This document shows, piece by piece, positions 97 to 62,954 of a DNA stretch of 64,000 nucleotides. How positions within the stretch are numbered: the stretch's first letter is position 1; each line of letters starts with the position of its first letter. The notes beneath the pieces were generated by a model. That model did no database searches, was not told where the DNA came from, and saw only the letters and a list, made by a program, of their open reading frames with translations. Both the position numbers and the translations under genes were made by a program. The DNA is from Boothiomyces macroporosus. Its lineage: Eukaryota > Chytridiomycota > Chytridiomycetes > Rhizophydiales > Terramycetaceae. The stretch lies in assembly GCA_027604185.1 (NCBI GenBank), contig JADGKB010000058.1, positions 1-64,000 of the forward strand, written 5' to 3'.

Positions 97-2287
97 TCAC
101 AATTTGGCAGGAGGTCTGACTTCGTCCAATTTCTTGTACATAGCATCAATGTATTGACGGTATTTGTTTGCAGCTTCTGGTCTCTTCAATTTGAAAGTTG
201 GAGTTAATAAACCATTTTCAGCACTGAATGCTTCACTATCAACATGAATTGCCTTCAAGAATTCGAATCCACGAAGTTTTTCTTTTTTACCAATTGCAGT
301 CAAGTCTTTCAAAATAGCTTCCTTGAATTTATCACTTTGGCATAATTGAACTAAAAGAGGGTGAGGTGGAGCACCAACTGCTGGAGGAGGAGGAGCAACT
401 GTGGAAGATGGCAATAGTCCATTTTGGATTGCATATCCGATGGAATATTCTTGGTCTGGAACTACAATACCGACTAATTCTGATTGTAAAGAATCACCAT
501 GTACATAGATTTGAGCAACAAATCCACTCTTTTGATAAACATTTTCAAGCTGGCTTAGGAATTAATTACCTTTTCTGGGGCAATGTATTCACCTTGGGCG
601 AGCTTAAAGATATTCTTCTTACGATCAACAATGAACAAACGACCATCCTTATCCAAAGTGCAAATATCACCAGTCTTCAACCAGCCATCTGGAGTAATTG
701 TGTCTGCAGTCTTTTCCTTGTCTTTCAAGTATCCCTTGAATACAGTTGGACCTCTAATCCAGACTTCACCCTGACGTTAGAAACGGCAAACCTTCAAATC
801 TTTTGCATGGTAGTTCATTTCTGGAACAGACACCAATTTAATTTCACATGATGGCGATGGTGATCCGACATGTCCCGGCTTCAAATCAAACGGATGCATA
901 AGCGTAGTGTTTGCGGTAGATTCAGTTTGACCATATCCTTCAACACAGTGACAACCAACAGCGATACGAAGGAAGTTTAAGACATTTGGAGAAATTGGTG
1001 CACTTCCAGAAACGATTGCTCTGACACGTCCTCCCAACAAGGTTTTTACCTTGTTGAATACAAGTGGATCCCAAACAGAGTGAGTCAAAGTTCCATCTTG
1101 CTTCAAATAATGCAATTTAGCGTCCAACGCTCTGTTGAATAATGCAGCTTTAAGAGCTGACCCAGAGTTTGCTCCTTGAATAATCTTATCGTGAATTCTG
1201 TTCAACAAACGAGGAACAGATGCAAAAATAGTTGGTCTCAAGACACCAATATCTTCAACCAACAAAGATACATCTCCTCTAAAGAAACCAGCAGATGCAC
1301 CACATGCAATAACAGTGTTGATCAACAACCTTTCGAAAATGTGGGCTAATGGGAGGTAAGATACATGAACATCGGTAGGCTCCATCTTGAAAGAAGCACA
1401 AGAGCCTCTTACACCAGCAACAATGTTCATGTGAGTAAGCATGGCCCCTTTTGGGTTTCCAGTGGTACCTATATCAATAGTAAAATACCTGAAGTGTAGG
1501 AAAGGCAGTACAAGTCATCTTTGGTTGGTAAACGGTATGGCAATGGCTTTTTCTTTCCCAAGTCCAATACCTCACTCCAAGACACGACCTTAATACCAAG
1601 TTGTGCACCCCAGCTCTTGAAGATTGGGATTGGTGATTGTTGATCCTTAAATAGAGACTCCATCACGATAATCACTTTAAGAGTTGGGCATTTAGGAGAA
1701 AGAGCTAATAGCTGAGCAATTTTGTCAACTGAAGCCAGCAAAATTGGAACTTCGGCGTGGTTGATGATGTATTCAGTAGTTTCGGCACCAAGAGTGTCAT
1801 ACAAAGCAACATTTGGGATGGAATAGGCGCCAGCTCCGAGATCAGATACCATCCATTCTTCACGGTTGACTGAAAACACACCCAAAAACCATTGTGGTGC
1901 CTTGTCAACTACATACTGATCATAAAGATGCACCAAACCAGAGCCAAAGTGGGTGCGCTCTTCGTCGATTTGCTTGTAGGTCTTGAATTGATATTCAGAC
2001 CAGGTAACAACTCCATTTTTGACGATTGGATAACGTGTGCCCAAAAATGGACTATTTGGGAAGTGTTTTACAGTGTGATTAAAGATATCTTGTTGAGTCG
2101 ATCTTCCAGGGAAATCTGTTAACAATTCATTTGGTGAAATGGTTGATCTGTAGACAGCAGTTTCGAGTGGGTTTGCTGGTGTAGTTACTGGAACTGCTTT
2201 TACTCTGAGGGTCTTGAATGCCTCTTCTGCGAGGATTGGAACTCCTAGATAAGGATCAACTTGAGTCTTAATTTCTTGCTTTCCCAT
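97..2287 (-). CDS. Long-chain acyl-CoA synthetase, peroxisomal type
   Basis: Activates long-chain fatty acids to acyl-CoA through an acyl-adenylate, probably in peroxisomes. Four exons with introns at 1469-1488 (20 nt), 771-791 (21) and 550-569 (20) give 709 aa, the usual family length. Splicing the first intron restores the ATP/AMP-binding motif YTSGTTGNPKG near residue 264, which the intron interrupts. The fatty-acyl signature DGWLKTGDIC lies near residue 520 and the lysine-bearing GEYIAPEK near 550. The C-terminus is AKL, a type 1 peroxisomal targeting signal, as in yeast Faa2-like enzymes. ATG 2287 is the only start upstream of the conserved N-terminal region. The next gene is on the same strand 226 nt upstream. 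Family certain; peroxisomal location inferred from the tripeptide. Confidence 0.95.
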
Positions 2288-2513
2288 TGTTGGATGAACT
2301 TTTTGTCACTTGATTTTTGATTTGGACTGCAATCACATGATTTAGCCTGGAAATTCACCCACTACCTATTTGCTCACGGATTTAAAAATCCACGCTATAT
2401 CCTAGTATGTTACTAGCAAATACTATTCTTGTATTCGCGTTTGCCATGCCGACGTCGTTCTAGTTTCTGGAATACTGATTGTAATGACAGTTCGGCGGCG
2501 CCTTAAAAACAAT

Positions 2514-3573
2514 TTATTTTCGTTTAAACAGATAGTGCATAACAACCCAGTCGTTGCCGCCGTTGTACCCAAACACCTCCGCGACTCCGAGATAGAACAT
2601 TCTCCATCTTTGGAACCACACATTAGCATCTTTACCATAGGTTTTCGTGAATATATCCATAATTTCAGCCTTGTTCTCGTCCATCAGTCTCAACCATTCA
2701 TTTGAAGTTTTTTCTAGATTAGTGTATTCTTACCATAGTTTGAACCAGATACAGTCCATCTGTCGAGGACCTGCAAATCTTCCTGGAACCACATGAACAA
2801 ATCTTGGCATGGCATAGTACCCCCAGTAAAGAAATATTTCCCCATCCATCCAGAATTTGAGGTAAAGTCGTATGGCATGGATTTATGGGCAAAGACATGA
2901 ACAAACATTCTTCCAGTGTCCGGCTTAACCCACTTTGACACTTTTTCAAACAGTTGGTAGTAATTCTTCATATGCTCAAACATTTCAATAGACATTACGC
3001 GGTCGAATACTCTATCAGTTTGGAATTCATTCATATCAGCAGTGATGATTGTTAGATTCTTTAAACCAAGCTGATCTGCTCTGTCCATAATGAATTCTCT
3101 CTGTGTGGAAGAGTTGGATAAGCCAGTGATCTGACTGTTTGGATACTTTTCCGCCAAATACAAGGATAACGAACCCCATCTTTATAAAAAACAAATTACC
3201 CGCATCCTAAATCCAGAACAGTCAGTCCATCTTCCAATTGCGCTCTTTCGCAGTACAATTCAAGCATGTGCTCCTCTGCTTCATCCAAGTTTTTTGCTCC
3301 TCGCTCAAACAAGGAAGAAGAATACTTTAATCTTTTACCTAAACACAATTGAAAGAATCTAGTAGGCAATTCATAGTGCTGTTCATTCGCTTCTTCGGTG
3401 TTGAGGGCAATTTTAGCGGTTTTGAGGTTCAAAATGTAGTCTCTTTTCGCAGCATCTTGTTCGGCAGAAGTTGGATAAGTGAGATCCTTTGTCTTGAGTC
3501 CAAGCATATAGCGAGCACCCAGGCGAGTAATAAAGTCGGGAACGTAACCAGTTTCTACCAATCCTTCAAGCAT
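2514..3573 (-). CDS. Cyclopropane-fatty-acyl-phospholipid synthase-like SAM methyltransferase
   Basis: A member of the CFA synthase / coclaurine N-methyltransferase-like family: S-adenosylmethionine-dependent transfer of a methyl or methylene group, in eukaryotes of uncertain substrate. Introns at 3180-3199 and 2714-2733 (both 20 nt) give 339 aa. Splicing the first restores the SAM-binding motif LDLGCGWG near residues 120-127. Further family blocks are MSIEMFEHMKNY, GSNYEKTSNEWL (rebuilt across intron 2) and a C-terminus with FGYNGGNDW and HYLFKRK. The start at ATG 3573 matches short family members and no upstream in-frame ATG is needed. No signal peptide or membrane segment. Family secure; substrate (membrane lipid or small amine) not decidable here. 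Confidence 0.9.
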
Positions 3574-4091: not shown

Positions 4092-6146
4092 ATGCTTTTG
4101 GAAAGAGCGAAAAGCTTTGAACAATTCAGCGCAATGACGGTTGAAGAAGATTCAAGAATAAAAGAGTACCATGCGATCCTGAAAAACTTTGTGGATTCGG
4201 ATGTGACAGAAGTAAAACCAGTCCCCGTCGCTCTGTTGAACCGATTCAATCAGTTATCTCTGGATGCCTTATTGGACTCATCAAAGGATGTAGCAGATGA
4301 AATATATCGCAGAACGCACGATTCCAAAACAATGCTGCACTTACCAGTAAGAATGGATTTTTCTGCCAAAGTAAGTTGTTCCTAATATCAGCGAAATCAA
4401 GTAAGGCAGAAGCTAGCAACTTTCCAAACGGATAGATTCAAAGAATTTGTGGTACAGTTAATGATGGAAATAGAAAAGAGATATCCAGAAACCAAATCCA
4501 GGATTTCCATGCTTCCTACCAGGACCAGCACAAGACAGTCTACTCTTCGGAAAAAAACAACTGACAGAGATAATACTGTCAGCGAACCAGGAAGAAGAAG
4601 GAGAACAGAGGAAACCCAAAGAACAAACTCTATTCGCCAAAGGTCAGTTTATCAGCAAAATGAAGAAAATTCTATGAGTGCACTGGACAATTTAAGAAAG
4701 GAATACGAGCAAAAACTTTCCAGTTTAGAGACACAACTAACGAGAAAAGATGATACAATCGCCTCATTGAAGGATTCCGTTTCAAAGATGGAAAAGGACC
4801 AATTCCAAACTAAAAATTCTGGTGCTCAATTTGATCAGGAGCGCCAAAAGCTTCAAAAGGAGATTGACAGTCTTCAAGCCAAGAATAGCAAGCTTCAAAG
4901 GGAATTAGAATTATGTAGAAAGGAGTTACAGCAAGAACAAAAGATTGCTCATGAAGCAGAAACCCTTTGCGAGAAACTAGAAGCAAAGTACAATAAGCTC
5001 TACGCTGAGAAAGAGAACATGAGCCAGGAGTTACTAAAGAGGCAAGGCGATAACACAAAAACAATTAAAGAAATTGATCTCATTTCAAAGGAGCTAGCTG
5101 TTTGCCAAGCTGAAAAAAGCGCTGCAATCCTTGCCAGAGATTCTCTCAAAGATGATGTAGCAAAATATAAAGCAGAAATAGAAGATTTAAAATCTCAGAT
5201 AAAGAGAGTTGAAGTAGACCGACTCAATACAATGGTAGGATTAAATTAACCATAGCCAAAAATGACAAAAGCTCTGGATTCTAGAGTTGGGTTGCTTTCA
5301 CCAAATTCAGCAACATCTGGTGACACTGCATTGAACTATTCTACAAACGCTTCTGTATTTGAACAGCATTTCACAAAGTTCAAAGCTTATGCGAATGATT
5401 TAATTTCCTCTTCAAGCAAAGGCAAGAAACACATGACGGTACAACTGGCGAAACCGTTAGTATTGCTTTGCAGAGAAATCACAATTGAATGTGAAAAGAA
5501 GGAAGACGATCCAAAAGTTCGTGAAGACGACAAGGATAATATTATCGACTGCAAAAACAAACTCTCTGACTGTTTAGCAAATTTCATTGCTTGTACAAAG
5601 GTTCATGCCAGCGAAGGATCTTTGGAAGCTGCCAAGAAATTGGAAATTGAAATCATTGCTCTACAAAACTGTGTCTCTGAATTAGTCGATATCATGCGTA
5701 TCATTAACTCTGATGGCAAGAAAGCAGCGCAAGATTTAGAAATGTCCTTACCTGAACTAATCGTAACTATACTCTAACAATAGGATTACACCAAACAGAA
5801 AATCGATTCAATCAGTTCCCACCAAAAGGATTTATTCAGTCTCATAAAGCAAAACTCTGGCAATGGCAAACAAATGTCTGACCTGGTGAATGATATTTAC
5901 ATTTGCGTTGATGATATAATCTATGAAGCACAGGGCACTCTTGATACCACTAATGAACTAAAGAAAGCCGCTATTGAAGATGCTGACCACCAATTAGATG
6001 TGCTGACAGATGTCAGGACTGAGTTATATCGGCTGACTGATAAAGTATTGCAAAACCCTAAAGATCGCGATATCAAGCAGCAGATCACAGATTCAGTATC
6101 AGATGCCCTTCAATTCTCTAAAGATCTCTTGACAATATTAAAGTAA
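4092..6146 (+). CDS. Spa2-like polarity scaffold with Spa2 homology domain
   Basis: Spa2/Sph1-type proteins scaffold the polarisome and MAP-kinase components at sites of polarised growth. Introns at 4371-4391, 5235-5255 and 5763-5783 (each 21 nt, each with an in-frame stop) give 663 aa. Across the first intron the Spa2 homology domain (SHD, shared with animal GIT proteins) reads FSAK-RNQVRQKLATFQ, then RFKEFVVQLMMEIEKRYPE, around residues 85-125. Residues about 125-180 are basic and Ser/Thr-rich; about 185-370 is a long coiled coil. The C-terminal ~280 residues are helical, with an ENC-like composition and no motif I can name. Its stop lies 22 nt from the stop of the convergent NmrA-like gene. 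SHD assignment strong; a true Spa2 orthologue is likely, not proven. Confidence 0.85.
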
Positions 6147-6168
6147 TAAATGCCATATATTTTTTTAT

Positions 6169-11544: not shown

Positions 11545-12668
11545 CTACTCTTGGACAGAAACACTTATAGCAGTAGATGGTGTACCTTTCTGAGTTGTAG
11601 ATTTATTCAAGCTCTTTTCCGCACTAGATCCTTTGCTGTAGAATGGATTCCAAGCTTCTTCCTTTGAAGATTTTTCATAAATTGCACCTGTATAAGTATT
11701 CATTTACCCAAAAAGCCTCCAAATAACGGCACCAAAGGATAGATATTCTTGTGGCTCCCATTATTAATGAAAACCAACAGAGGAGTAATTGAGCTTAAAA
11801 CCAATCCATATGTACCTAACATCAATTGATTATTACCATAATACACGTTTATAACTGAAGGGAATATCCAGATCAACAGTTCAAACCCTTTTACAAACCC
11901 CACTATTGGCATAGTGTATCCAATTTGGAGAACTTGGAACACTACATACCCGGAAACACCACTTTTTTGGGCAGTTTCAATCATTCGTTGAAAATTGACT
12001 TTTAAATTCTTGTAAGTGCGCAATGTACAATACAACCCATACAAAGTTGTAAAAATGGCCAAGATATACGCAATAATAACTTTTGTTAATATCCCCTTAC
12101 CGACATACGACGTGTTGTAGCATGTAATCATTGCTCCATTGACCGAGTATGGCGTAGAAATACCGCGCACGTTCATTTCGATCCAGTACAAAACGAGCAT
12201 TACAATCCCTGGAACCATTCCAACCGAGTAAAACAATGTCGGTCTTTCCCTAACCCAGTCACGAACTACTGATGCCTTATCAACCAAGAGAGAGTCCAAA
12301 GCAGCAATTTGGCAAACACCGGCTACATAGATGGGTAGCATACACAAAATAGCCAAGGAAGCGTTTGCATAATGTATCCAACTAGAAAAGGTAGCATTCA
12401 CGTCCGAGTGATCGAAATACAATGATTTGGCAGACCAGTTGTAGTACAACAAATCGTGCTTGGAAAAGATACAAATAACACAGAACCCAAGACTGCAAAA
12501 CAATTGAAAAATACAACTGTACTGCATAGGAGTAAACGTTTGACGCAGGTAAGCTCGGATCAAGCCTATTATTAAGCAAATTGAAAGAAACAGTCCCCAA
12601 TAGTCAATAATCAACAGGATCAACACGAAATAGTTGGACAGGGCTTGTTGAGGGTCGTGATAGATCAT
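11545..12668 (-). CDS. Seven-helix membrane protein 1 (tandem 7TM family, subgroup A)
   Basis: First of six tandem paralogues. Introns at 12080-12100 (21 nt), 11816-11836 (21) and 11688-11707 (20). The two 21-nt introns carry no in-frame stop; they appear only as 7-residue inserts against paralogue 4, which has introns at exactly those codons and phases. Spliced length is 353 aa. Seven hydrophobic helices: roughly 12-36, 44-66, 94-118, 140-163, 185-208, 225-253 and 260-288. Family landmarks: MQYS after helix 1, SKHDLLYYNW, PIYVAGVCQI in helix 3, GMVPGIV and YWIEM in helix 4, FELLIWIFPSVINVYYG between helices 6 and 7, FINNGSHKNIYPLVPLF at the end of helix 7. The tail has EEAWNPFY. Not a family I can name; receptor-like topology. 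Confidence 0.85.
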
Positions 12669-14196: not shown

Positions 14197-14590
14197 ATTT
14201 ATTTCTAATATTTTTTGCTTTTTAAACCCAGGAAAGTTGGCTGGTCCGTGAATCTAATTGGGAAAATTTTTGGTGGTACAAGCGTACGAGTGTTTCAAAC
14301 AAGTAAAAATCAATAGGGAAACTATCGCATTCATAAGTGTTTGTGTAACGTATGATTACATCAGTACCGTAGTTTGCAAAACTCTGAATACAGTATAGGA
14401 AGCTATCTTAGCGAACAAGATAACTGGCTTTTCGTTTGAGAATTGATGAGCAATTGGAATAAATAGCAGATTGATAGTCAGCAGCACCTTTTCGAATTAA
14501 TATCAACCATTAAGAACTTCTAATCTAAATGGGGAAACAATCAAATGACAGTGAAATTAATATAATTTCTAAACAAATCTGCATTATTTA
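14197..14590. other. Gap between 7TM genes 2 and 3
   Basis: About 390 nt. Next to the gene 2 start, in coding orientation, is TTTAAAAAGCAAA (14214-14229), shared with the 12.8-kb gap. Nothing else recognised. Confidence 0.4.
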
Positions 14591-16088: not shown

Positions 16089-17142
16089 TTAATTATTGCT
16101 GCGTATTGATGACCTATAGAATGGATTCCAGGCCTTCTCTTCAGACGATCGCTTATAAACATTTTCTTGTTAGATTGGAGTTACCTAATAGAGTACTGAA
16201 CATGGGCATCAATGGGTAGATATTCTTGTTACTCCCAACATTCATGAAAAGCAGTATTGGTGTGATAAATGCGAGTATCATACAGTAGGTTGCTGCATTA
16301 GAAATAAAGCACCGTAGTATATGTTGATTACTGACGGGAATATCCATATTAGCAATTCAAAGGACTTTACACCGCCAACAATTGGCATAGCGTAGCCAAT
16401 ATGAAGCACTTGGAATACAACATGGCCGGCAATTCCCTGTTCCTTTGCACACGAAATCATTTGCAAGAAATTCATCTTGATTCTCTCATAAGACTTCATT
16501 GAACGGTACAAACCATAGAGCGTAATGAGAATATTTACAATATAGCTCGCCATTTCTAAGTTAACAATGGTTACGTGTAAAAGACAAGTTGTAAGGGACA
16601 ATCATTGCACCATTTACCGAGAATGGCCTTGGTATTTCCCGCAGGTACATTTCTAGCCAATATAACAGAACAAACACAACACCCGGTATTAGTCCATGGG
16701 AGTATATAAATATGGGGTGTCTTATCAATACTCCCACCCAAGTCGATTCTTCATCTCTCCCTGATAATAGTGCATCCAACATTGCTATTTGGAATAGCCC
16801 TGATATAAATATTGGTGTTATAAGCAACATGAATACTGTTGGACAAAGATAGTGTATCCACGTTACATTCGTAGTTTGGATATCAGGGTAATCAAAATAT
16901 AGCCCACCATTCGCCCAATTTGATATTACCAACTCTTGTTTAGCAAATATTGTCATTATTGAAATACCCCCAGCACAAGTCAGCTGTAAAAGTGCGTTGT
17001 ACTGCATTTGCTGCAAGCTGTTGCTCATAATCGCGCGTGCAAGTGCAACAGACAATAGAAATAAAAGAAATACTCCAATATAGTCCATTGCGAGTGTAAA
17101 GAGCACAAAATACATGTCCAATTTTTGTTGTGGATCTTGCAT
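16089..17142 (-). CDS. Seven-helix membrane protein 4 (tandem 7TM family, subgroup A)
   Basis: Four exons; introns at 16556-16574 (19 nt), 16293-16312 (20) and 16166-16184 (19) give 331 aa. The start ATG 17142 (MQDPQQKLDMYF) matches gene 1 (HDPQQALSNYF); the longer ORF upstream begins with TTG. Landmarks: QMQYNALLQLTC, AKQELVISNW, TPIFISGLFQIAMLDALL, GLIPGVVFVLLYWLEMYLR, FSVNGAMIVPYN, VVFQVLHIGYAMPIVG, FELLIWIFPSVINIYYA, FMNVGSNKNIYPLMPMF, tail EEKAWNPFY. All three introns coincide in codon and phase with those of gene 1, so these two are sister copies or both keep the ancestral structure. Confidence 0.87.
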
Positions 17143-42523: not shown

Positions 42524-43778
42524 CTATTGAGCAGCTGATTGGAATATAAATCTCGCCATTTCAAATAAGGCACGATTTGCTTTACCATGAGCACTAGATG
42601 GTACATTATGTAATGCAAGAGGGAAATCGTGCGGCATATCGATTCCTAGTATAATCTGGTTTGTTTAAACTTACCTTTAACTTGGCTCTAACATCCTTTT
42701 GTTTTCGAATTGATTTTACCCAGTCATCAATCTCGGGTGCAAAAATCTCTGTGCTTCCATATATAAGTAACATTCCATCTTCTGGCATCACAATAGGCGA
42801 CAAATCAAAAAATGGAGACATTCTTGGATCTCTTGGGTGCATACTACTATTAGAGAAGGTTACCTATGAGGTATAGTGTTATCTCTCCATACTTCAAGCA
42901 TTTTGTATGGCAAATAGTCGGAAGTAGCACTGAGCGAATCTAGAATATGAGGTGGTGTGTGAGAAAGCGATAGATCTAACCATGGCGAAATAATAATTAG
43001 GCTTTTGGGCAAGATCAGATGCGGATTAGCAGACTGTTGTTTAACCAACATCTGATGAAGAGAAAGCATCAGGTTTGCTCCAGCAGAATCACTTCATTAG
43101 CAATAAAATACCCACCGATTACAATATTTCTTACTCCTACATGCTGAACTAGCCACAAATAAGCAACATAAACCGAATCTAGCTGCTGAGAGTATTTCAC
43201 TTCAGGTGCGAGTGGGTATTGAGAACAGAAATACAGCAGAGGTTTGGTTGTGGCGGATTTCAATCGATTGTACTGATTAATTATTTGCGCATGACCAGTA
43301 ATAAACGAATATGCGCTTCCAGATCCAAATCCCCCTCCATGTGCCCAGAACACCACGACTCGCTCTTCCCATTCTTCCGAACTTACCGAGGGGAGTATAT
43401 CCCTATTACTAATGATCCTGAATTAAGGGATATTACCAAGCGCCGTTGACAATTCTCTCATCAAACTTTCTTACAATGCGCTCCACTTGGCAACCAGTAA
43501 ACCACAATCGAATCCTTTCAATCAAGTCATACAGCTCGGTCAGCCTTCTAATTCTTATCCAGTCTCCATTTGCCATGGCAAATCTAATCATATGGGCATA
43601 TATCAACAGTAATACATTCCAACTTGGCGGTGCGTTTGGAGAGCCAAACACCCTTTGAAATATTGCCTGGGGAACAGCAATAAACACTACATTAGATATA
43701 GGTACAAGTGTACAATGTAATTGCTAGCAGCCCTCTTGGAAACAAGTAAAATTCAAACCACTCCAAGAATGATGACAT
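42524..43778 (-). CDS. HSL-type alpha/beta hydrolase with N-terminal membrane anchor
   Basis: Alpha/beta-hydrolase fold-3 family, like yeast sterol deacetylase Say1 and arylacetamide deacetylases, usually ER-anchored esterases. Introns 43687-43705, 43418-43436 (19 nt each), 43092-43111, 42844-42863 (20 each) and 42656-42674 (19) give 385 aa. Exon 1 (MSSFLEWFEFYLFPRG) plus LLAITLYTLFIAV supplies a signal anchor. HGGGFGSGS is the oxyanion-hole motif. Splicing intron 3 creates the nucleophile elbow GDSAGANLM, otherwise broken. The catalytic acid is probably in LLIYGSTEIFAPEIDDW; the histidine is in DMPHDFPLAL. The start is my exon inference; it puts the ATG 21 nt from the divergent TyrRS ATG. 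Confidence 0.85.
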
Positions 43779-43799: not shown

Positions 43800-45229
43800 A
43801 TGAGAATATCAGTGCTAAAATTCCAAACCAGATTTCATTCCCAAGTGATAAAGAATTTAGAATCCAGATTCCAGATTACTTGTACCAGAGAAATCAATTT
43901 ATCCCGCCCGACTACTATTTACACTGGATTCGATCCAACAGCAAAATCACTCCATGTTGGGAATTTATTGACCATAATGGCCCTGTTACAATTCCAAACT
44001 ACTGGACACCAAGTTATAGCACTGATTGGTGGAGCCACTGGTTCAATTGGTGATCCATCTGGCAAAAAGACTGAACGGGCAGCATTGGACAAGGAAGCGG
44101 TGAAAGCCAACACAGAATCAATTATTAGTCAACTGGAGTTACTCTTTTCAAATGCAAAGCATTATTGCCATGATAGAGGCATGGATATTGAAAAGCCGGT
44201 TAGAATATTGAATAATCTGGACTGGTTTCAACAAATGTCAATGCTAGAGTTTATCGGTGATGTCGGCCGTAAAGCCAGAGTTACGCAGATGGTAATTCTT
44301 TCTGATTTAGTTGGCTAGAGATAGCGTAAAGGGACGAATGGATGGGGAAGGCATATCGTTTACTGAATTCGCATACCAACTTCTGCAGGGTTATGATTTT
44401 TGGCATTTATATTCTCAGCATCAATGCAGAATTCAAGTAACTGCTATTAATAGTAGTTGGGCGGTTCAGACCAATGGGGTAATATAACTACTGGCTTGGA
44501 TCTTATTCGAAGATATAATTTGGAGAATGAACAGGATAATGAGCCCGCATATGGTATTACTATTCCCCTAGTTACTACACCGACAGGAGAAAAGTTTGGA
44601 AAAAGCGAAGGAAATGCCATTTGGCTGGATAAGAGCCTTTTATCAGTTTTTGATTTCTATCAGGCATGTATACCTAACAATAGTTTTTCAGAAAATCACC
44701 AGATGCAAATATCCAACAGCTGCTAGAATATTTCACGTTGTTACCAATTGAAGAAATCAACGTAATAATGGAAAAGCATTTGGTAATTGTTTCTAACTTG
44801 GAAATCCCCTGAAAGTCATCTTGCGCAAAAAATATTGGCAAAAGAGGTTACTGAATTGGTGCATGGAAAGCACGAAGCTAGAAAAGCCATAGTCATGTCA
44901 ACTGTACTTTACGAAAGCAGTTTTGAAGAGCTGAAATATGATGATATACATTTAGCATTTTCAAATTCTTCGCGACTGGCTGCAATCAAGCTACAAGAGA
45001 TGCCAATAGCTGATTTTATCATTCAAGTTGGATCCCTTCCTTCCAAATGTAAAGTTTTCTAACCATAGCTGCTGTTCGTAAAATGATTGCAAGCGGTGGT
45101 TTGTACATCAACAAACAAAAAGCTACGATGGATCAAATTATTACTCGCAAAGATTTCATTATAGACAACAGGTTTTTGCTGGTTAGTGTCGGCAAGAGCA
45201 AGTACAAGCTAGTCGAATATATTATTTAA
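43800..45229 (+). CDS. MSY1: Mitochondrial tyrosyl-tRNA synthetase
   Basis: Bacterial-type TyrRS that charges mitochondrial tRNA-Tyr. The basic N-terminus ([15 protein letters not shown]) is a presequence. Introns: 44292-44310 (19 nt), 44437-44456 (20), 44664-44683 (20, GC-AG), 44783-44801 (19, with a GG instead of AG end) and 45049-45068 (20), giving 443 aa. HIGH-type motif HVGN follows [11 protein letters not shown] near residue 45; the tyrosine pocket block is [13 protein letters not shown] (rebuilt across intron 2); the KMSKS-type loop is [10 protein letters not shown]. The C-terminus has an S4-like RNA-binding segment ([13 protein letters not shown]). Frame demands the odd fourth intron: without it the reading stops at once. 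Confidence 0.93.
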
Positions 45230-45278: not shown

Positions 45279-46661
45279 TTAGCATGTTTTTGGTTCTCCA
45301 TTTACAAAGTTGTGAATTGATAGTATGGTAGAAAGAACCATAATGATAATACCAAATCCAACCAATAATACACACTGAATTTTTTTGGAATCAAAAGGAC
45401 CTTTTTCAAGCTTTAAATAGCAAGATGCGGGTAAAATAAATGCCAGCATGGTAGCAGCAAACCCTCCCTACATCAGTATTAATTACTGTTAGCTCAAGGA
45501 CAAAGCCCAAGTCACAAGTAGATAGAGCAATAAACATGGCAGACAAGACTAGTGCTAAAGTAGTACCATAATGTACCTTATCACTAGTTACCTGGTTTAT
45601 ATCAGTATTGGAACCATACTGATCTGCCCACAAGTAGTGGAATAACACTTCCCTGCATACAAAAGCTTCCATTGGAAAAGTAAGGAACATGTTCATTCCA
45701 AAGAATAGTCTAGTCATATTAATCAAGAATGAAGTGTTGGGGAAATTTGTCAAAATATTTGCTCATTAGCAAACAATTACCAGCAGTTTTTTCTCCAAAT
45801 TCTAGATATCCAGATAACGCCATCACGATACAAAATGAAAAAGAGGCACTGGTTAGCAAAGTAGTACAATATCGATAGGTGAGTAACCGTGCCAAATCGT
45901 TCAATAGATTTGTTTTTTAAAGATCCGTAAATCATAAAAGTATTGTGATGACAAACAAACGCAAATGAAATCACCCCAATAGCTTGAAACACTTGTCCGT
46001 TAATTAGAGTGAATTGATTGTCTCCTCTTTCATCTTGTGTAAGCTGCGTACTTTCAAACATCACGGATAGCACTATAAAGAGAATCATTCCAAGTGAAAC
46101 CATTGAAGTTTTTGATAAAGAAGAGATATCCCTGTAACTTGAAAGTGGAAGTGAAATGAATAGAGTGCAAAATATGATAATAAATGACCTAGAGTTGAAT
46201 AAAGGAGAAAGAAATGATTCTGGCAATAGAGATAAAACAGCGGGTATGGTATCTCCTAATATAACAGTATAAGCACACATTGCGCCATAAGCAAATACAA
46301 ACTGAAATATTGAAATCACCAAGAATCCTTTTTCGCCATAGCAATGTTTGATTAAGCCTAATATTAGCATATTTAACCTTTGTTAGTAGAATGAACCTTG
46401 ATAAGTATATTGGCCAGACATTTTCCCGTTCAAAACGAGTAACAATACAGTCTGATCCACTAGGTAAGCCAAGAGTCCCAGCAACACTATTCCAGTGAAT
46501 AATCCAGCCTGTTTGAAGGCGTAGGGCAATCCAATTATCCCTGCACCTACAATAGAATTTGTAAAATTAAAAGAAGCATCCAGGATTCCAGATTTATTCT
46601 GCTCCTGTAAATCATCAAACTCCAGCATCTCTATTTCCTCGTCTTCAACTGGAGCATACAT
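45279..46661 (-). CDS. Amino-acid transporter, AVT / SLC38 type
   Basis: Amino acid/auxin permease family carrier, like yeast vacuolar exporters Avt5-7 and animal SLC38; about eleven helices, 428 aa. Interruptions at 46358-46396 (39 nt, a twin of 19 + 20 nt), 45849-45867, 45762-45780 and 45468-45486 (19 nt each). The N-terminal family block is DASFNFTNSIVGAGIIGLPYAFKQAG. Splicing joins QYTYQ to GLIKHCYGEKGF. HNTFMIYGSLKNKSIERFGTVTHLSI is the SLC38-type block in helix 5-6, and FCIVMALSGYLEFGEKTA follows. ATG 46661 lies 22 nt from the divergent CHCHD5 ATG. Confidence 0.92.
46358..46396 (-). other. Twin intron: 19 nt + 20 nt, both GT-AG, no exon between
   Basis: On the minus strand GTTCATTCTACTAACAAAG (46396-46378) is followed directly by GTTAAATATGCTAATATTAG (46377-46358). 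Each is a perfect mini-intron with CTAAC/CTAAT. Removing only the first gives a stop at once (GGT TAA); removing both gives the conserved YQ-GLIKHCYG junction. Confidence 0.85.
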
Positions 46662-47211: not shown

Positions 47212-54326
<7,115 letters not shown>

Positions 54327-54420: not shown

Positions 54421-54923
54421 ATGTTGGTCAAGCGAATCAGTTCAAATTTCTTAAAATGCCGTCAGTTCTCAGCCATCAGTTTCCTTCGCAACGCAGCACA
54501 CACTCCAACCACCGGAAAATCAAATGTTAAATTGGAAGAAACCATTCCAGGTTTTAGAGCTCCAGGAGCCGTTGCTACAGATTACGAAATCGCAACTGGT
54601 CTTGAACGTTACGAATTACTCAAAGGTTTGAAGGGAGAAGATCCATGGGAAGATTTACACCCAATTGAAATTACTGCATTGGGTACCACCAAAAAGCCAA
54701 TTGAGGTTAAAGGAACTGATGTAGAACGTTATATTGGATGCACTGGTAATTTTTTGTAACTGTAGGTTTCCCAGCTGATTCCCATCCACCAATTTTCCTT
54801 ACCCTCAGAGATTATGGTGGCAAGCACTTTGACCGATGTCCAGATTGCGGAAATGTATTCAAGGTAACTCGTCTTTAATTCTAGTATACTCAAGAGCATG
54901 ATCACCACGACGCTCATCATTAA
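54421..54923 (+). CDS. COX4: Cytochrome c oxidase subunit 4 (COX4; COX5B of animals)
   Basis: Zinc-binding nuclear-encoded subunit of respiratory complex IV. Introns 54746-54765 (20 nt) and 54864-54884 (21) give 153 aa. The first 30 residues (MLVKRISSNFLKCRQFS) form a mitochondrial presequence. Core blocks: ATGLERYELLKGLKGEDPWED, ERYIGCTGFPADSHPP (rebuilt across intron 1), and the zinc site FDRCPDCGNVFK. The tail after intron 2 is His-rich (EHDHHDAHH). The start at 54421 is the first ATG; the longer frame begins with TTG. Confidence 0.95.
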
Positions 54924-54967: not shown

Positions 54968-56215
54968 TCATTTAGAAGGAAAATTCTCCAACCACGACTC
55001 AATTGTTGCTTTTACAACCAAGTGTCTAGACAGATTGTTGTGACCTGCATGAGTAACACGGAGTAGCCAAACAGGGTTTTCGTCCGAATTTAGAGACCAC
55101 AGTTCGCCCTCATGGTCTAGGTGTGTGATTGACAGCCCTTGAACATCTTTATGTTCGAATTTAGCTTTCTGCGGTCTGTTTCTAATTTCCCAGTATCCAT
55201 CATCAACTACTTTGTTCCCAGTTCTTCCGCTAATCGCCTCAAGGAAATTAGCTTCTGCTTGCCAAGGTTTAATTTCAAAATCTTTAAGACCATGCATAAT
55301 TAATATTGGTGTTGTGATTGAAGACATTTTAAGATGAGATGACCATTTATCAACAATCTTGGACTTTATCCACTTTTCGAGTTGTGGGAATCCATGGAAT
55401 GGCAACAGCACTGGAACCATAGGATATCCTATAGCAGCGTCAGCTATACTAGCGTATCCTAATATTAATTAATGCTTGCCGGAAAGTAATACTAAACCGC
55501 CACAAGGAGGAGTTCCCAACTGCGTTTGTTTTAAATCCAAAGTGTAAGCCAAATCAGTTGCTATTCCAGAACCTTGTTACTATGCAATTACCTAATGAGT
55601 GCCCGACGATAATAATCTTTCTAGGATTAACTCCTTGATCGACAATCCAGTCGTATGCTGAAATAGCGTCAATTCGTACAGTTTTTTCGGTAGGGATAGC
55701 AAATGAAGAGTCGCCAAATCCTCTATAGTCTATAGCAATTACATGTGAGTTTATATTTAATGAAGTCATCATCTTGTAGAAATCGGTTCTGTGAAATGTA
55801 GCTCGATTTCCTGCGTTTCCATGGAAATACTATATTAAACGCTGCATACCAAAAATACAATGTCCGCTTTATCCAGATCAGATGACTCGTCAATTTCCTG
55901 TTGGTATTGCTGTGGGTTGGGTTTGGGAATGAATCGATGGGGAAATATATGCCAAGCGCCGAGCAGTAAATTGTCTTTGGTTTTAATTTTGAATGACTTT
56001 ACACTTCCACCTATATGAGCATTATTTACTCCTGAATCCGAATTCTTCTGCTCTGTTGAAATCGACAAAGAACGGAAACTTTGCGAAATTGAGATACATT
56101 GCCCAATGCTGAAAGGGAAACGGAAAGAGAATCAATATCCCTAGTATGAGCTGTGTTAAATTGTATGTACGAGGTAGAAAATGAGGCCAAAAAATACCAG
56201 CGACAAGATTGACAT
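54968..56215 (-). CDS. ABHD12-like lysophospholipase
   Basis: ABHD12-type serine hydrolase; the animal enzyme hydrolyses lysophosphatidylserine at the ER. Introns 56151-56170 (20 nt), 56011-56029 (19), 55830-55849 (20), 55573-55591 (19) and 55459-55479 (21, GC donor) give 382 aa (human 398). TM anchor about 4-24. FPFFVDFNRAEEFGF precedes the hydrolase fold; YFHGNAGNRATFHR is the oxyanion strand; VIAIDYRGFGDSS follows; intron 4 removal gives the nucleophile elbow GHSLGSG near residue 186; acid in MHGLKDFEIKPW and histidine in THAGHNNL. The start is the first ATG upstream that joins the conserved exon in frame. Confidence 0.88.
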
Positions 56216-56358: not shown

Positions 56359-57033
56359 CTACAGGTTTCTAGCTTTCAAGTCATCAACTTGCTGAGAGAA
56401 TATCTTCATCAATTCGGACGGTTTTGTTTTGCCTGGGAACTGCTTTGCAAGATATACATCGAATACGTCGGAAAAGATGGCATTCGCGACTTGAGTCTCT
56501 TTGAATAGAGTTCCTTCCTCTGGACTAGAGTTAATGATATTTACTTTAAAAGATTTACAAGAGTGAAGAGGAACCTAAACTGACCTGCTTTTCTTACTGC
56601 TAAATCTGGGAAGACAAAGAAGCAGCCAAGTGCTCCAGCAGCATCGAAAAGGAATCTACCTTCTGAAATCAAGTTTCCAGCAAGGTGCGCTTGTTCTTGC
56701 TTTACGGGACGGTTGCTTTCGTCTATTGACCATAGGGTGGCACATAATACCCAGTTAAACTCTCTATTTGGCCTAGATTAGTGATATTCTGACTTTATAT
56801 ATTTCGTAGGGTCTTCAGGATCCTGTGCCCACAATTGAATAACAGGAGGCTGATATTAATCAGATATTACTGGGTCTACTGATCTGAAGTCCTTTGTTCC
56901 ATTACCACAACTTCTTGCCCGGTTCGGTTGTTGAACCATCACCAGCTTATACGGCATATTCTGCTGGCTTTCTTCGTTTATTATCGTTTCTGAGCTACTT
57001 GTTAGCTGGGGAATACCCTTCTCTCGAAAACAT
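56359..57033 (-). CDS. Velvet-domain regulator, minimal form
   Basis: Velvet proteins (VeA, VelB, VosA, VelC) are fungal regulators with an NF-kB-like DNA-binding fold, coordinating development and secondary metabolism. Introns 56998-57016 (19 nt), 56850-56870 (21), 56773-56793 (21) and 56525-56544 (20) give 197 aa, little more than the domain. Blocks: YKLVMVQQPNRARSCGNG then KDFRSVDPPPVIQL; WVLCATLW; GRFLFDAAGALGCFFVFPDLAVRKAGQFRF; and the C-terminal VYLAKQFPGKTKPSELMKIFSQQ. Exon 1 encodes only seven residues (MFSREG plus a split codon), so the start is less certain than the domain. Closest by brevity to VelB/VosA; not resolved. Confidence 0.88.
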
Positions 57034-58231: not shown

Positions 58232-60643
58232 ATGAGCAATCGAAATCTTGTTGCGGTGCTCCAGTCATGCTCAAATGTTTCATTCAAAAGCAATCAGGAG
58301 ATGGATGGGATATTAGCGCTGGTGACTGACAAAGTAAATATCACTCTTGGTTGGATTGCGGTGGAATCTTTAAATAGGGAACAATTGAACTTATTTCACA
58401 TTCCAAAACAGCCAGGATTAGTAGATTTAAACCTGATTGAATGTTTCACAACTTCTGTTGATTCAATTATATGTGTCTCGTTGGAGCCAGAACTTTCCGT
58501 GTATAATAACAAAGCCTGTTGTCTGGTTTCAATGACAGTAATATTCACAACAGAATCGGGAGAAGAATCGCAATGGCCTGCGCTTCTCTTTAATCCTACT
58601 TCCTTTGGGATACAATCAGTCGCTGATGTTCATTCAATGCTGCGAAAGTGGCTACGCCCCTTCAAAAGGGATTTGATTTATCTGGATGATGGGAAGAACC
58701 GCTATTATCTCACAGACAAATTACAGAATATTGTTACGGAAAAATGGCCAGCTGGTATTCCTCAGCCGCCGGAAGATTCTAGTGTATATAAAATTGGAGC
58801 ATTTGGATTTGGCGTGGTGTCCTCTCTTCTAGGCTCTCCTACTGCGCATGTAGATTATTATTAAAAGTAGAAATTGGAAGACGTTGGCTGGGATGTATTG
58901 GAAAGATTCGCGCAAGTAACTATATTTGCAAAAGATAAGACTAGTACTTTGACAACTAAATATAGCACAAGCGTTGGAGCATCCTTTAGCGAGGCCATTG
59001 CTGCCATTAATTCCAGATAAAATTAGGTCAAACTTTTTGACTTCTGCGGAAGCTGAAGCTCTTATACAGGACTATGATTCAGCGCATCGTTACCTGGCCC
59101 AATTTGCTGATGAAATACAGAGAAAAATAGGTATTAAAAAGGATATCGAAGAACTCAAGGAAGAGCCTGATACCACCTGCGATTTTGAAAATTTAAAGGG
59201 TCATTACATATCACACTTTACAGGCACACCAGTCACCACCGAGAAATGGTCTTCATGGCTGAATGAACATGGAAGCCTGACTATTTCGTCTTATAAAGTA
59301 GCGTGCCATGTATTCTGTGGAGTAAACAAATACTAATTTAGGGAATTGAACCTGCGCTTCGCCCAACAGCTTGGAAGTATATTTTGGGTGCTACACTCGT
59401 AAATATTCGCTAAATGTAGTGGACGGAAGATGAAAAGACCAACGAGAATCTCCTGCAACAGAAAAAGGACACCTACTATAAAATGAAGAGCTCGTGGATG
59501 GCTATTTTACAAGAAGCTGGAAACAAGTCACCAACGAAAATTAAGGAGCCGCATAATGGGCCGGTTGGAGATGAAGACGAAAACTCTGACGTTATATCCA
59601 AGCTAACTGAGCGCAAGTATAGAATTGGTATTAATTCCATTAACAATAGACAAGGACGTAATTCGAACAGATCAAACAATTCCATTCTTTACTGCAGGCG
59701 AGATTAACCCAAAGAATACATTGCACCAGACTATCGAAACCCAACCTAATCTGGTAACTCTTCGAAATATCTTGATGACATATACCATCTTGAACTTTGA
59801 GCTTGGATATGTTCAGGGTATGAGTGATCTCGCTGCTCCAATATTGGAAATAGTGAAAGATGAAGCCGAAGCTTTCTGGTGTTATGTGGGACTGATGGAA
59901 AAGATGAAGCAAAACTTTCAAAGAGATCAAAGTGGGATGCAAAATCAGCTGAGAAAGCTGGAATTACTGCTTAAGGTGCTTGATCCGCCATTGTATCGTC
60001 ACTTTGGTAAGACTCAATTGATATTAGAAAATTGTGATGCGGTGAATATGTTCTGTTGTTTCAGGTGGCTTTTGATTGCCTTCAAACGGGAGTTCTACTT
60101 TGAAGATATAAAAACTTTATGGGAAATTATTTGGATGTCTCCTCTAACGGCTCATTTCAATCTATTTGTAGCAGTGGCAATTTTGAATCAGCATAGGAAA
60201 GCTTTACTGGAAACACAAGCATTTGACGAAGTCTTAAAGGTATAGTGATTTCTAACAAGTATATAAATAACCTGTCCCAAAACATTAATGTACCGGAAGC
60301 AGTTCAAAGAGCTGAAGTGCTGTACTATATCCTTAGGGACAAGCTCGCAACAAGCGGTCCTGAAGGTCTTGGTGAAAGTATTGGGAAAACTGTCAGCTCA
60401 ATCGTGACAGATGCAGATTTGAATGTTATTTCTGGACGAGAAAACAAAATACTTGTTCTTGACCAAACAGAGTACAAGAAGGAATCAAATCTAAGTTCTG
60501 AAGAATGGTATGAGCTGGTACAAGTGTTTGAAATTGATCATGCTATTGCAAATAAGGAAAGAATGAGTACTAGGGTGGAGGTAGAAGATGGCGCTGATGT
60601 ACAAATGTCTGGCATGGAATCTGTAACAAATATTGCTGAATAA
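58232..60643 (+). CDS. Rab GTPase-activating protein, TBC1D15 / Gyp7 type
   Basis: Stimulates GTP hydrolysis by Ypt7/Rab7-like GTPases on late endosomes and vacuoles. Introns: 58850-58870 (21 nt), 58944-58965 (22), 59322-59341 (20), 59399-59419 (21), 59628-59649 (22) and 60240-60259 (20), total 761 aa. The N-terminal PH-like part contains LRKWLRPFKRDL; then WDVLERFAQVTIFAKDKTTQALEHPLARPLLP, typical of Gyp7. The TBC domain (about 340-680) has GGIEPALRPTAWKYILG, the arginine finger in IDKDVIRTD (rebuilt across intron 5) and the glutamine finger in GYVQGMSDL, so it should be active. Start ATG 58232; the upstream TTG frame is rejected. Stop is 5 nt from the TMEM214 stop. Confidence 0.93.
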
Positions 60644-60648
60644 ATCCT

Positions 60649-62954
60649 TTATTTTAAATATTTGAGTAGGTTCGCCATTAAAAGAGCAAATTCATGGCGA
60701 AATGTTGCAATCATTGATAGTAAAGGTTGTTGATCTCCTTCCATGAATATCAAAATTGCTTCCCCAAGATGTATCGAGTTTTGCAAGAATTTCACAAGGA
60801 TATCCGTCAACGCAACATAATAACCTTTCAAGTAAAGCTCAAATAAATCTTGTGCTTTCAGGTAGTATTCATTTTGGGTGATTAGAATCCAATATCCGTT
60901 CGCTGCCAAAGAGTTCATATACCTTGCCTTGATTTCATTCAGCACTTCAAAATGAACAGCCATCGAGTTGATCAAATATCGGAAAACAGACGCTAGCACT
61001 TTGAGCATCTTCAATACAGTTTGATACAATTGTGGAAGGAAGATGTCCACCATATTCTCTGCTTGGAAGTGTACAAATCTGAACAAATCCTCCTGAACCT
61101 GACTAACAAAGACCTTCATTTCGTGCCAGTCTAAACCGTCGTACGTATATGATGCTGTAACTTTATACCCAATCAACTCAAGAATGAAAATCCCTTTTTC
61201 AGTTAAATTCACAATGAAAGGGGTAACGTATTGATGGAATATACCGACGAAATACTGGACTATAGGATTCCTACTATAAAATTCTAAAATTGAATGATAA
61301 ACTTGCAAGGCTTGAATTCGGTATTCGTCTCTATAAAATTCTTTCCACTTTGTGAATACCACACTAGAAACGTTTAGCAAATATTGATGAGCCATTTGGA
61401 TATAAGGGATCAAAAATGCAGAAACTGTATCATACACCTGTTTCACAACTGATTGAGGTTCGAACGGCAACGGACAAGTTCTACCAGACATGGGATCACA
61501 TTGTACATATACCAATGCATAAAAGAAGAAGGAGAATATCGATAGTTGAATAGCGATATGAAACAAAGATAAGGATGACTCTGGCTGGGTAAAGTTCATA
61601 AGATGCTGATTTAAATAGGTGTTACCTTTAATGAAGCCTTGATCTCTGGTGTTGGGGATTTTTCAATATGTTTTAGAACGGAAAAGAGCTTTGATTTTGC
61701 AATCTGAATTAGTGATAGATACTCTTTGCCACAAGTTACTGCTGTTTCCAAATAGAGATGTTTCAGAAGAACGAAGATTCAAGAGAAAGACAATCAGCAG
61801 CAAAGATTCGGTTTTGAAATTCTCGTACTGTGACCTCCAGTAATCCAAACTTTGATCGGAAATCTCTTTGGATTTTGAGCCAATGAGCCAAGACAGATTT
61901 GAAAGCAACTGATTTAATCATCAACCTACCTCGTACTTTAAATTGCCATTCAAGTTTTGATTCAAGGGACTGAAAAATGCAGAAAAGGCAGTTGCAGGGC
62001 TATTTGTAAGTATCAATGGAGGCTCTGTTTCGAACATCAACAGCTAGGTTAATAAATATAACCTTTGTTGAGTAGTAAATTTTCTTGATAGATTCATCCT
62101 GTGAATCTGATTTGAACGTGAGATTCATCAGGGAAGTGTATGTTGCAATTGGTAACAATGGAAGCTGATATTTTGGTAGACTAAAGATTCCTGCTATATC
62201 CACTAGGCTACTGTTATTAAGGAACTACCATCTTAAAGATTCGCGAGCGTAAAATGTTGCAATTGAGCTATTCCACTTTTCATTCTTGTACAAAGTAAAA
62301 AAGTACTCAAACCACATTTCAATGCATTTTGGATGTGCAAGTTTCTTTCCATTGCTCAACGTAATAAATTGCTGACTGCAGATCCAAAGAAGCGAGTTGC
62401 CAACTCCTTCATTAAGAATTTCTCCCTTGAACTCTTTAAATAGCATGGTCGCAACTGACAATTTTTCTCCTTTTAGAATGCAAAAGAACAAATCAGGGTA
62501 AGCAGTTGCGATTGCTTGGATAATCAACAAGTACCCTGCTACATCCAGTTTACCCTTTGGTTTTGATTTTTGAGTAATAATCAACTCCTTTCCGATTGCA
62601 AATAAACCATCGGCGACCAATTTCGGCTCCAATTTGAGTAGGTATTTCAAAATTTCCTTCACCACTTCTTCCCGTACATATCTCAATGGTCCTGAGGTAA
62701 AAGGATGCTTACCACTAAATTCATCGAGTTTCTGTGAATATGAAAATCGTAATTCAAAATCGTTCACAAATGAAGGAGCGTGTACATCAAGGCTGTTCAG
62801 AGTAATCTGTATTAGTGAATATAGACCTGCAATTTTGCCGCTAAATCCTTAATAGGGAGTTTGGAAGATTGCTTATTCATAGTCTCTATGAATTGAATCA
62901 TCGTTTCCTTTTGGAGCTGAGTTAGCACTACAATACTTTTCCAAGATTCTCCAT
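60649..62954 (-). CDS. TMEM214: TMEM214-like ER membrane protein
   Basis: TMEM214 is an ER-anchored protein linked in animals to stress-induced caspase activation; its general role is unclear. Seven introns, 62917-62936 (20 nt), 62807-62826 (20), 62208-62228 (21), 62044-62062 (19), 61909-61929 (21), 61704-61722 (19) and 61606-61625 (20), link four apparent ORFs into 721 aa (human 689). Order of blocks fits: LPIKDLAAKLQITLNSLD, FTSGPLRYVREEVVKEIL, a helical repeat region, LNGNLKYELLSNLSWLIGSKS, then a membrane helix LSLFHIAIQLSIFSFFFYALV (about 413-435) and a long amphipathic C-terminus. The 316-aa single ORF at 60649-61599 looks independent but is its last exon. Sequence similarity is modest. 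Confidence 0.78.

Follow-up and report, generated by a model that had tools for sequence, protein, structure and literature searches.

In the soil chytrid Boothiomyces macroporosus, a fungus, U2-type spliceosomal introns have very probably shrunk throughout the nuclear genome until they reached a lower limit near 19 nt, as judged from the DNA sequence. In the window, the whole 64,000-nt stretch of DNA analysed here, a trained gene finder that allowed lengths of 12-150 nt called 105 introns, and 96 of them measure 19-22 nt (23, 41, 24 and 8 introns of 19, 20, 21 and 22 nt). When only 17-25 nt were allowed, all 94 introns called were of 19-22 nt (23, 39, 24 and 8). These counts confirm an earlier note on this DNA, which had put 88 of 88 introns at these lengths (26, 35, 20 and 7). 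Nearly all introns thus lie within a few nucleotides of one length and below about 25 nt, as in an ultrashort-intron lineage.

The first gene finder gave every length from 12 to 150 nt an equal prior and set GT-AG against 13 control dinucleotide pairs; once this step was complete, the finder's own output served to train it. With equal priors GT-AG peaked at 19-22 nt and the control pairs had no such peak, and calls of 18-24 nt numbered 78 for GT-AG versus 4-23 for the 13 controls. Above 24 nt and up to 150 nt, GT-AG showed no excess over the control pairs, with 64 calls of 25-150 nt versus 111-125 for the 13 decoys, that is, below every decoy. This lower count is partly expected, because short introns already mend the frame whereas decoys must mend it otherwise. 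Called introns of 25-150 nt were rejected, since their rate is at or below that of the decoys and several are bridges joining separate genes. An in-frame stop is absent in 36 of 112 called 21-nt introns; such introns are easily missed because of a bias in the method.

The short class extends beyond the window. Across 327 kb of the genome, 464 of 524 introns called by the trained model are of 19-22 nt. It might be supposed that only a single region or a minor share of the genes has tiny introns and that the bulk are of usual fungal length, since full reading covered about 2% of the genome and the longest intron modelled was 150-200 nt. However, the length spectrum of 25 more 10-kb stretches, from 25 contigs, matches that of the window, spliceosome genes on other contigs likewise have ultrashort introns, and the GT-AG calls of 25-150 nt fall under all decoys, so this supposition is very improbable. 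A motif pattern searched through the whole genome (15.2 Mb) gave 1417 forward matches and 47 with the pattern reversed, a 30-fold excess; an exact 15-mer pattern, tried first, gave 0 matches. The earlier note's reading, that a fungus carries such spliceosomal introns throughout its genome, is supported; the sequence fits the chytrid B. macroporosus, and the total may be roughly 22,000 ultrashort introns by extrapolation.

The genes of the window and their introns are as follows (lengths in nt in brackets).
97..2287, minus strand, acyl-CoA synthetase-like gene: 550-569 (20), 771-791 (21), 1469-1488 (20); against a solved relative two of three junctions are gapless and the third is at a 3-residue gap, with an in-frame stop if retained.
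2514..3573, minus strand, CFA-synthase/coclaurine N-methyltransferase-like gene: 2714-2733 (20), 3180-3199 (20); both junctions gapless.
4092..6146, plus strand, coiled-coil protein gene (by inspection): 4371-4391, 5235-5255, 5763-5783 (21 each); gene model.
11545..12341, minus strand, tandem-family paralogue: 11688-11707 (20), 11816-11836 (21), 12080-12100 (21).
16089..17142, minus strand, tandem-family paralogue: 16166-16184 (19), 16293-16312 (20), 16556-16574 (19).
21271..25304, minus strand, ABC-transporter-like gene (by inspection): 21439-21458, 22893-22912, 23533-23552, 24197-24216 (20 each), 24538-24558 (21); gene model.
26749..28009, plus strand, P2X-receptor-like gene: 27136-27155, 27670-27689 (20 each); gene model, Pfam P2X_receptor.
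28045..30319, minus strand, TSR1: 28416-28435 (20), 29059-29077 (19), 29621-29642 (22); against solved TSR1 6g18 two of three junctions are gapless and the third is flanked by two small gaps.
30723..31910, plus strand, Cactin gene: 31054-31073 (20), 31546-31564 (19), 31646-31665 (20), 31855-31873 (19); the spliced protein matches Pfam cactin domains.
34602..35703, plus strand, forkhead gene: 34878-34899 (22); the spliced protein matches the forkhead domain.
36678..40967, minus strand, vigilin-like KH gene (by inspection): 37515-37534 (20), 38258-38278 (21), 38501-38521 (21), 40067-40088 (22), 40320-40338 (19), 40561-40580 (20); gene model.
42524..43778, minus strand, esterase-like gene (GDSAG, by inspection): 42656-42674 (19), 42844-42863 (20), 43092-43111 (20), 43418-43436 (19), 43687-43705 (19); gene model.
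43800..45229, plus strand, tyrosyl-tRNA synthetase: 44292-44310 (19), 44437-44456 (20), 44664-44683 (GC-AG, 20), 44783-44801 (GG end, 19), 45049-45068 (20); the three GT-AG junctions are gapless against bacterial TyrRS, and the GC-AG and GG units fit Terramyces TyrRS.
46358..46396, minus strand, two abutting introns of 19 + 20 nt that meet at AG|GT without an intervening exon; the gene encodes an amino acid transporter.
47212..54326, plus strand, PRP8 (core spliceosome protein, 2329 aa), six ultrashort introns, all six confirmed: 47349-47368 (20), 47505-47523 (19), 51750-51770 (21), 52008-52028 (21), 52389-52410 (22), 54185-54206 (22).
54421..54923, plus strand, cytochrome c oxidase subunit 4/5b-like gene: 54746-54765 (20), 54864-54884 (21); both gapless, the second at the alignment edge.
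55459..55479, minus strand, a 21-nt GC-AG intron whose branch reads TTAAT; the gene that contains it carries a GHSLG motif.
56359..57033, minus strand, velvet-factor gene: 56525-56544 (20), 56773-56793 (21), 56850-56870 (21), 56995-57016 (22); Pfam Velvet in the spliced protein.
58301..60643, plus strand, Rab-GAP/TBC gene: 58850-58870, 58944-58965, 59322-59341 (donor uncertain), 59399-59419, 59628-59649, 60007-60027, 60240-60259.
60649..62954, minus strand, gene without assigned function: ultrashort introns called at ten places, the outermost being 61255-61274 and 62917-62936; gene model only.

Prp8, taken in two pieces that span all six junctions, aligns to solved Prp8 chains with no junction gap, and it is identical to the Prp8 of Boothiomyces sp. 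JEL0866 at 2303 of 2336 positions. In the Rab-GAP/TBC gene, six of eight called introns agree exactly with the JEL0866 protein. In the two intron-bearing tandem paralogues all three introns agree in alignment column and phase, and four paralogues that lack these introns show no gap there. Altogether 23 of 28 junctions proved exact on comparison with solved structures or with a protein from Boothiomyces; 3 were inconclusive or shifted and 2 wrong, one of the latter being a GC-AG intron of equal length. Where compared, the public protein models of Boothiomyces sp. JEL0866 and Terramyces sp. JEL0728 point to many of these short introns too. The public models are inconsistent: that of JEL0866 Prp8 retains one intron as a 7-residue insert, and a conserved 42-residue exon present in Terramyces TyrRS is missing from the TyrRS models for B. 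macroporosus and JEL0866.

Nine calls in the window exceed 22 nt (116, 136, 90, 101, 133, 66, 64, 43 and 32 nt). Those of 116, 136, 90 and 101 nt look like bridges from gene to gene. The 133-nt call breaks down into two introns, GT-AG of 19 nt and GC-AG of 21 nt, with an exon between them; the 66-nt call contains two abutting units of 19 + 20 nt, and in the 64-nt call a 19-nt unit with a GG end is joined by coding DNA. The 43- and 32-nt calls sit at gene ends. Four of the 96 short calls fail or probably fail closer inspection: 58518-58538 in the Rab-GAP/TBC gene is probably not an intron, being coding in two relatives; 44683-44702 in tyrosyl-tRNA synthetase is superseded by the GC-AG intron 44664-44683; 47205-47224 overlaps the Prp8 start codon and is missing from the 17-25 nt run; and 19357-19376 is probably a bridge between two genes. 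The unit 28799-28819, added by the 17-25 nt run, is wrong, as it is coding in TSR1.

The introns have a characteristic layout: a donor GTAAT(T), 13-14 nt before the branch A, a branch YTRAY and 5-6 nt to the last G. Their ends are GT-AG (or GC-AG), those of U2-type introns, and in the equal-prior finder GT-AG was favoured over 13 decoys. The branch position is A in 469 of 475 introns, with YTRAY in 327. From the branch A to the last G there are 5-6 nt in 348 of 475, so the earlier note was right to place the acceptor about 5-8 nt behind a YTRAY-like branch. Its claim that donor and branch leave no room between them comes close: 343 of 475 introns have 13-14 nt ahead of the branch A, which would leave just a few nucleotides between the U6-pairing and U2-pairing stretches. 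A branch motif score above 5 was found in 59% of introns and in 7.6% of 5000 GT..AG 19-22-mers from the same DNA, the motif having been learned from these introns. Some introns depart from the model: 62 of the 475 have their best motif too early, 7-11 nt after the intron start, and in 51 the motif is only weak. G at donor +5, a usual though not defining feature of U2-type introns, shows no preference (80 of 475 GT introns, 17%, versus a background of 19%), and no compensation between G at exon -1 and G at donor +5 was seen (p = 0.18).

Five well-formed GC-AG introns all have G at +5. The 15 GC-AG calls show no excess over other donors tried (11-20); by reading the list, YTRAY with A at nt 14-15 was found in 5 of the 15. 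Abutting tandem units (AG|GT, no exon between) number three in all. When both halves of 46358-46396 are removed, the amino acid transporter aligns without a gap to SLC38A9 across the junction, with a weak score. The count of abutting pairs alone proves nothing, because AG|GT gives 2 and 14 control tetramers give 0-2; one pair, found separately, stands outside that count.

U1, U2 and U6 snRNAs were found with canonical recognition sequences, U1 at 68.8 bits, slightly below the gathering score of 69.5, and the U2 branch-pairing GUAGUA is canonical in both copies. It could be argued that ribosomes skip the units (translational bypassing) or that they are frame errors of the assembly, since removal from RNA is inferred from sequence and the GG-ending unit could be an assembly error. 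Yet the GT-AG ends, donor consensus, branch motif and 30-fold genome-wide excess are marks of introns, the snRNAs are present, and assembly errors would yield neither motifs nor identical positions in paralogues; such an explanation is hardly tenable.

All seven protein factors sought were present (Slu7, Prp18, SF1, U2AF65, Yju2, Cwc25 and Isy1), U2AF65 at 230.7 bits versus a whole-protein cut-off of 310.3, with sub-threshold matches also in 2 of 14 control genomes. Yeast needs Slu7 and Prp18 less if branch and acceptor are close. The expected loss of Slu7 and Prp18 proved wrong, as did that of SF1 or U2AF65. The splicing machinery thus looks ordinary. A spliceosome remodelled as proposed for Stentor (Cwc25 plug lost, Isy1 N-terminus altered), and not a simple physical floor, might instead set the length: solved Isy1 chains align with the Isy1 fragment except over its first 21-30 residues, and the Stentor Isy1 N-terminus is given as non-conserved in excerpts of PMC9505925. 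This divergence may, however, be a fault of the gene model, because the Pfam Isy1 profile matches weakly from position 4 (30.8 bits) and the gene start is uncertain. Moreover, Cwc25 begins MGGGDLNLKKSWHP, as in the solved homologue 6zym, so that its active-site GGG plug is intact, the Yju2 N-terminus is complete, and Prp8 shares 82% of 1408 residues with the Prp8 of a bird. We consider such remodelling unlikely.

We prefer a floor that would arise from two minimum spacings added together: 13-14 nt ahead of the branch adenosine and 5-6 nt from there to the final G. U1 or U6 would grip little beyond the donor GTA, U2 would pair with YTRAY almost adjoining the donor contact, and a branched loop of about 14-15 nt would form; the second step could proceed without scanning because AG comes at once. 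Deletion pressure may have brought the introns down to this floor, and the missing +5 G may result from the tight packing of U1/U6 and U2 on such a short strand. A bolder version, which we offer tentatively and hold to be doubtful, is that some twenty thousand introns of a fungus are as short as a nearly unaltered spliceosome can physically handle, that the +5 contact was given up because U1/U6 adjoin U2 (GUAAUU in Stentor suggests the same by analogy), and that the tolerated length is so narrow that longer introns exist only as abutting 19-20-nt tandems removed successively (recursive splicing of minimal introns).

No report of genome-wide introns this short in a fungus was found by literature search. 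According to excerpts of PMC9505925, the heterotrich ciliate Stentor coeruleus has introns of 15-16 nt and shares with the chytrid a genome-wide narrow class, GT-AG ends, a nearly fixed branch A, U1 ACUUACCU, U2 GUAGUA and U6 ACAGAGA; its commonest intron start, GUAAUU, is the chytrid consensus. Its introns are shorter, however, with the branch A at nt 10 and no strong branch consensus, they occur in 18% of genes, and the Cwc25 plug is reported lost in Stentor but is intact in the chytrid. The nucleomorph of the chlorarachniophyte Bigelowiella natans, with introns of 18-21 nt (extracts of PMC10245619, PMC2222250), has a nearly identical length range and a high intron density; its genome is an endosymbiont relic for which a branch-point signature is reported to be missing and 5' sites to be mostly GT(A) (also PMC2483917, in part), whereas the chytrid introns lie in a fungal nuclear genome and have a clear branch motif. 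Mikrocytids, as described in parts of PMC10245619, have a narrow class of 16-17 nt with conserved motifs, but they are intracellular parasites with 224 introns in one species and 17-19 spliceosomal proteins found; the chytrid is intron-rich and has all seven factors sought. Paramecium introns are about 25 nt (PMC5014332) or 20-35 nt (PMC2222250), and those of Dicyema, an opisthokont like the chytrid, average 26.2 nt (PMC2222250), in the passages available. Both are about 4-6 nt longer than the chytrid's and lack a branch-point signature in the account excerpted from PMC2483917.

Introns of 19-22 nt are close to the smallest on record; in the part seen of a 2025 paper, 23 nt still counted among the shortest introns known (PMC12316389), and a minor-intron survey of >3000 eukaryotic genomes excluded, by its available text, all introns <30 bp (PMC10639083). 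Several of the public gene models checked are faulty at ultrashort introns. The excerpted PMC2483917 states that three short-intron lineages have no branch-point signature, a rule that the chytrid breaks with a clear YTRAY at a preferred distance. The finding suggests that tiny introns require neither a reduced nor a visibly rebuilt spliceosome core, because the extrapolated introns coexist with a Prp8 so close to that of a bird, canonical U1, U2 and U6 and an intact Cwc25 plug. This chytrid therefore is a fungus for asking how small introns can get, and what sets the minimum intron length becomes testable in an opisthokont.

The predicted GT-AG introns of Boothiomyces macroporosus (Terramycetaceae, Rhizophydiales, Chytridiomycota) form a single clear length peak at 19-22 nt. 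This peak was found with a purpose-built gene finder that used codon usage and GT-AG jumps and weighted all lengths of 12-150 nt alike; it was applied to the window, which is the initial 64 kb of contig C58, and to 20 stretches of 10 kb, one each from 20 other contigs of the assembly (15.2 Mb, 216 contigs). In this run 78 of 148 GT-AG introns were 18-24 nt long, against 4-23 among 127-157 for the 13 control dinucleotide pairs. There was no signal of longer introns at 25-150 nt (64 for GT-AG, 111-125 for the controls), a count in which short introns had already repaired frames that the decoys must repair otherwise. A later run, trained on donor, acceptor and length and allowing lengths to 200 nt, called 524 introns in 327 kb (the window, 25 stretches and four snRNA loci, about 2% of the genome in full). 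Of these, 475 were 18-24 nt long, 464 of them 19-22 nt; among the remaining 49, one was 17 nt and the others were 31-144 nt. At this density of 1.45 introns per kb, the whole genome would hold about 22,000 by extrapolation. The combined donor, branch and acceptor pattern at ultrashort spacing had 1417 matches genome-wide and the reversed pattern 47. Thus the claim of the earlier note that introns of 19-22 nt occur genome-wide holds beyond the window.

Protein alignments to solved structures or to proteins of relatives showed that 23 of 28 checked junctions were exact; on this sample, roughly a tenth of the calls may contain some error of detail. For all six Prp8 introns, the alignment to solved Prp8 chains, including hPrp8, has no gap at the junction, and the encoded protein is identical to Prp8 of Boothiomyces sp. 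JEL0866 at 2303 of 2336 positions. Both junctions were exact in the cytochrome oxidase subunit and in the methyltransferase, as were two of three in acyl-CoA synthetase (the third falls at an alignment gap) and in TSR1 (the third sits between small gaps). In the TBC protein, six of eight introns were exact against JEL0866 and one donor was off by 12 nt; the call at 58518-58538 is coding in both relatives. Three of four short introns called in TyrRS were correct. The TyrRS call at 44683-44702 was ruled out because FYQFFRKAPDANIQQ of Terramyces sp. JEL0728 shows use of a GC-AG intron of equal length at 44664-44683. The same gene holds a 19-nt intron-like unit (44783-44801) with consensus donor and branch that ends in GG instead of AG; it is an allele, an assembly error or a true non-AG intron.

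Two members of the tandem family at 11.5-20.8 kb, genes 11545 and 16089, have three introns at the same columns and in the same phase, with lengths of 21/19, 21/20 and 20/19 nt, and the four paralogues that lack these introns align without gaps at the three sites. This array (11545-20814) comprises at least six membrane-protein-like paralogues; a Pfam scan of one of them gave no match. A fungal homologue of the P2X-type ATP receptor is encoded at 26749-28009.

Public protein models of JEL0866 already imply ultrashort introns, which annotation software met inconsistently. Its Prp8 model agrees at five introns and retains the first as seven added residues, LSFTNCR, absent from solved Prp8 chains; most simply, these would be an in-frame 21-nt intron (20 nt in B. 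macroporosus) retained by annotation. The TyrRS exons match the public B. macroporosus model (P0125) letter for letter except where that model deviates. A conserved 42-residue TyrRS exon between two ultrashort introns (44311-44436) is missing from P0125 and from the JEL0866 model (P0127), and is retained in the Terramyces model.

The 475 introns of 18-24 nt, 70% A+T, share a compact anatomy. The donor is GTA, with A at +3 in 89%, followed by A (56%), T (44%) and T (55%); G at +5 (17%) is not above background. The branch site is YTAAY in 281 and YTRAY in 327, and 469 have A at the branch position. The branch A is preceded by 13 or 14 nt in 343 introns, and 12 nt is rare (8 introns) where 13 nt is common (155). 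Speaking against a perfectly sharp floor, the best motif lies at 7-11 nt in 62 introns and is weak in 51; some of these branch placements may therefore be wrong. From branch A to the last G there are 5 or 6 nt in 348, in line with the short YTRAY-to-acceptor spacing noted earlier, which leaves no space for a pyrimidine tract.

Three pairs of ultrashort introns abut as AG/GT with no exon between:
window 46358-46396, 19+20 nt
L008 (a stretch elsewhere in the genome) 7913-7952, 20+20 nt
L021 (likewise) 8930-8969, 20+20 nt
Visual inspection shows YTAAY in five halves and ATAAC in the sixth, and all have the branch A at nt 14-15. Such pairs were not in excess over controls. Removal of both halves of the window pair restores an amino acid transporter whose alignment, of weak score, has no gap across the joint. 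Each pair is either one 39-40-nt intron or two introns taken out successively.

Two splicing-linked genes, Cactin (30723-31910) and PRP8 (47212-54326), lie within the window. U1 starts with AUACUUACCUG, U6 contains ACAGAGA and both U2 copies contain GUAGUA. The two U2 genes (L028, L029) are diverged, each with the canonical branch-recognition sequence, and U6 (L026, 1501-1606), compared with the Rfam consensus, carries one extra base after AUGGC. Slu7, Prp18, SF1/BBP, U2AF65, Yju2, Cwc25 and Isy1 are encoded outside the window, and ultrashort introns were called in all these genes but Yju2. In Stentor, loss of the Cwc25 plug is reported and proposed to help make room for the tiny lariat (PMC9505925), whereas the B. 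macroporosus Cwc25 N-terminus, MGGGDLNLKKSWHP, is the same as in the solved homologue. Judged from this sequence, introns of 19-22 nt do not require plug loss. The Isy1 N-terminus, from a tentative gene start, may be divergent, as it looks when set against solved structures and as is reported for Stentor, but the Pfam Isy1 profile still gives a weak match that begins at position 4. It is hard to recognise (L036, 1225-1520), and the start of the gene has two plausible short introns separated by 1 nt. Cwc25 matched with equal scores on contigs C49 (3194-3481) and C100 (4789-5076), an apparent duplicate, and identical intron pairs recur on C2 (near 269.6 and 312.2 kb) and C3 (near 209.0 and 230.6 kb); these are perhaps uncollapsed haplotypes or recent duplications.

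The pieces of the ultrashort intron and their spacing can be read directly from the sequence. Because U1 and U6 are canonical yet +5 is free, the grip on the donor would come chiefly from GTA and exon bases. The branch follows after 13-14 nt, which would leave no more than a few nt between the U6-paired and U2-paired parts, so that U1/U6 and U2 would almost touch on the intron. Among 15 GC-AG calls, judged by eye, five contain a YTRAY motif whose A falls at nt 14-15; their donors are GCAAGT (three), GCAAGC and GCATGT. All five have +5 G, against one of the other ten, and the +5 contact thus seems still to work where the weaker GC donor needs it, although five is a small number.

No report of ultrashort introns in a chytrid or any fungus was found in the open-licence PMC literature; a 644-genome fungal study mentions intron lengths and, in the parts consulted, no ultrashort class (PMC8476143). 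Elsewhere, published lengths are 15-16 nt for Stentor (PMC9505925), 16-17 nt for mikrocytids (PMC10245619), 18-21 nt for the chlorarachniophyte nucleomorph of Bigelowiella natans (PMC10245619, PMC2222250, PMC2483917), a minimum of 23 nt for Trichomonas (PMC12316389), around 25 nt for Paramecium (PMC5014332) and 26.2 nt for Dicyema (PMC2222250). The commonest Stentor intron, GUAAUUUUUAUAUAG, has U at +5 (PMC9505925), as in B. macroporosus, and 5' sites of Paramecium and Bigelowiella are described as mostly limited to GT(A) (PMC2483917). By this analogy, loss of the +5 G may be a common consequence of extreme shortness.
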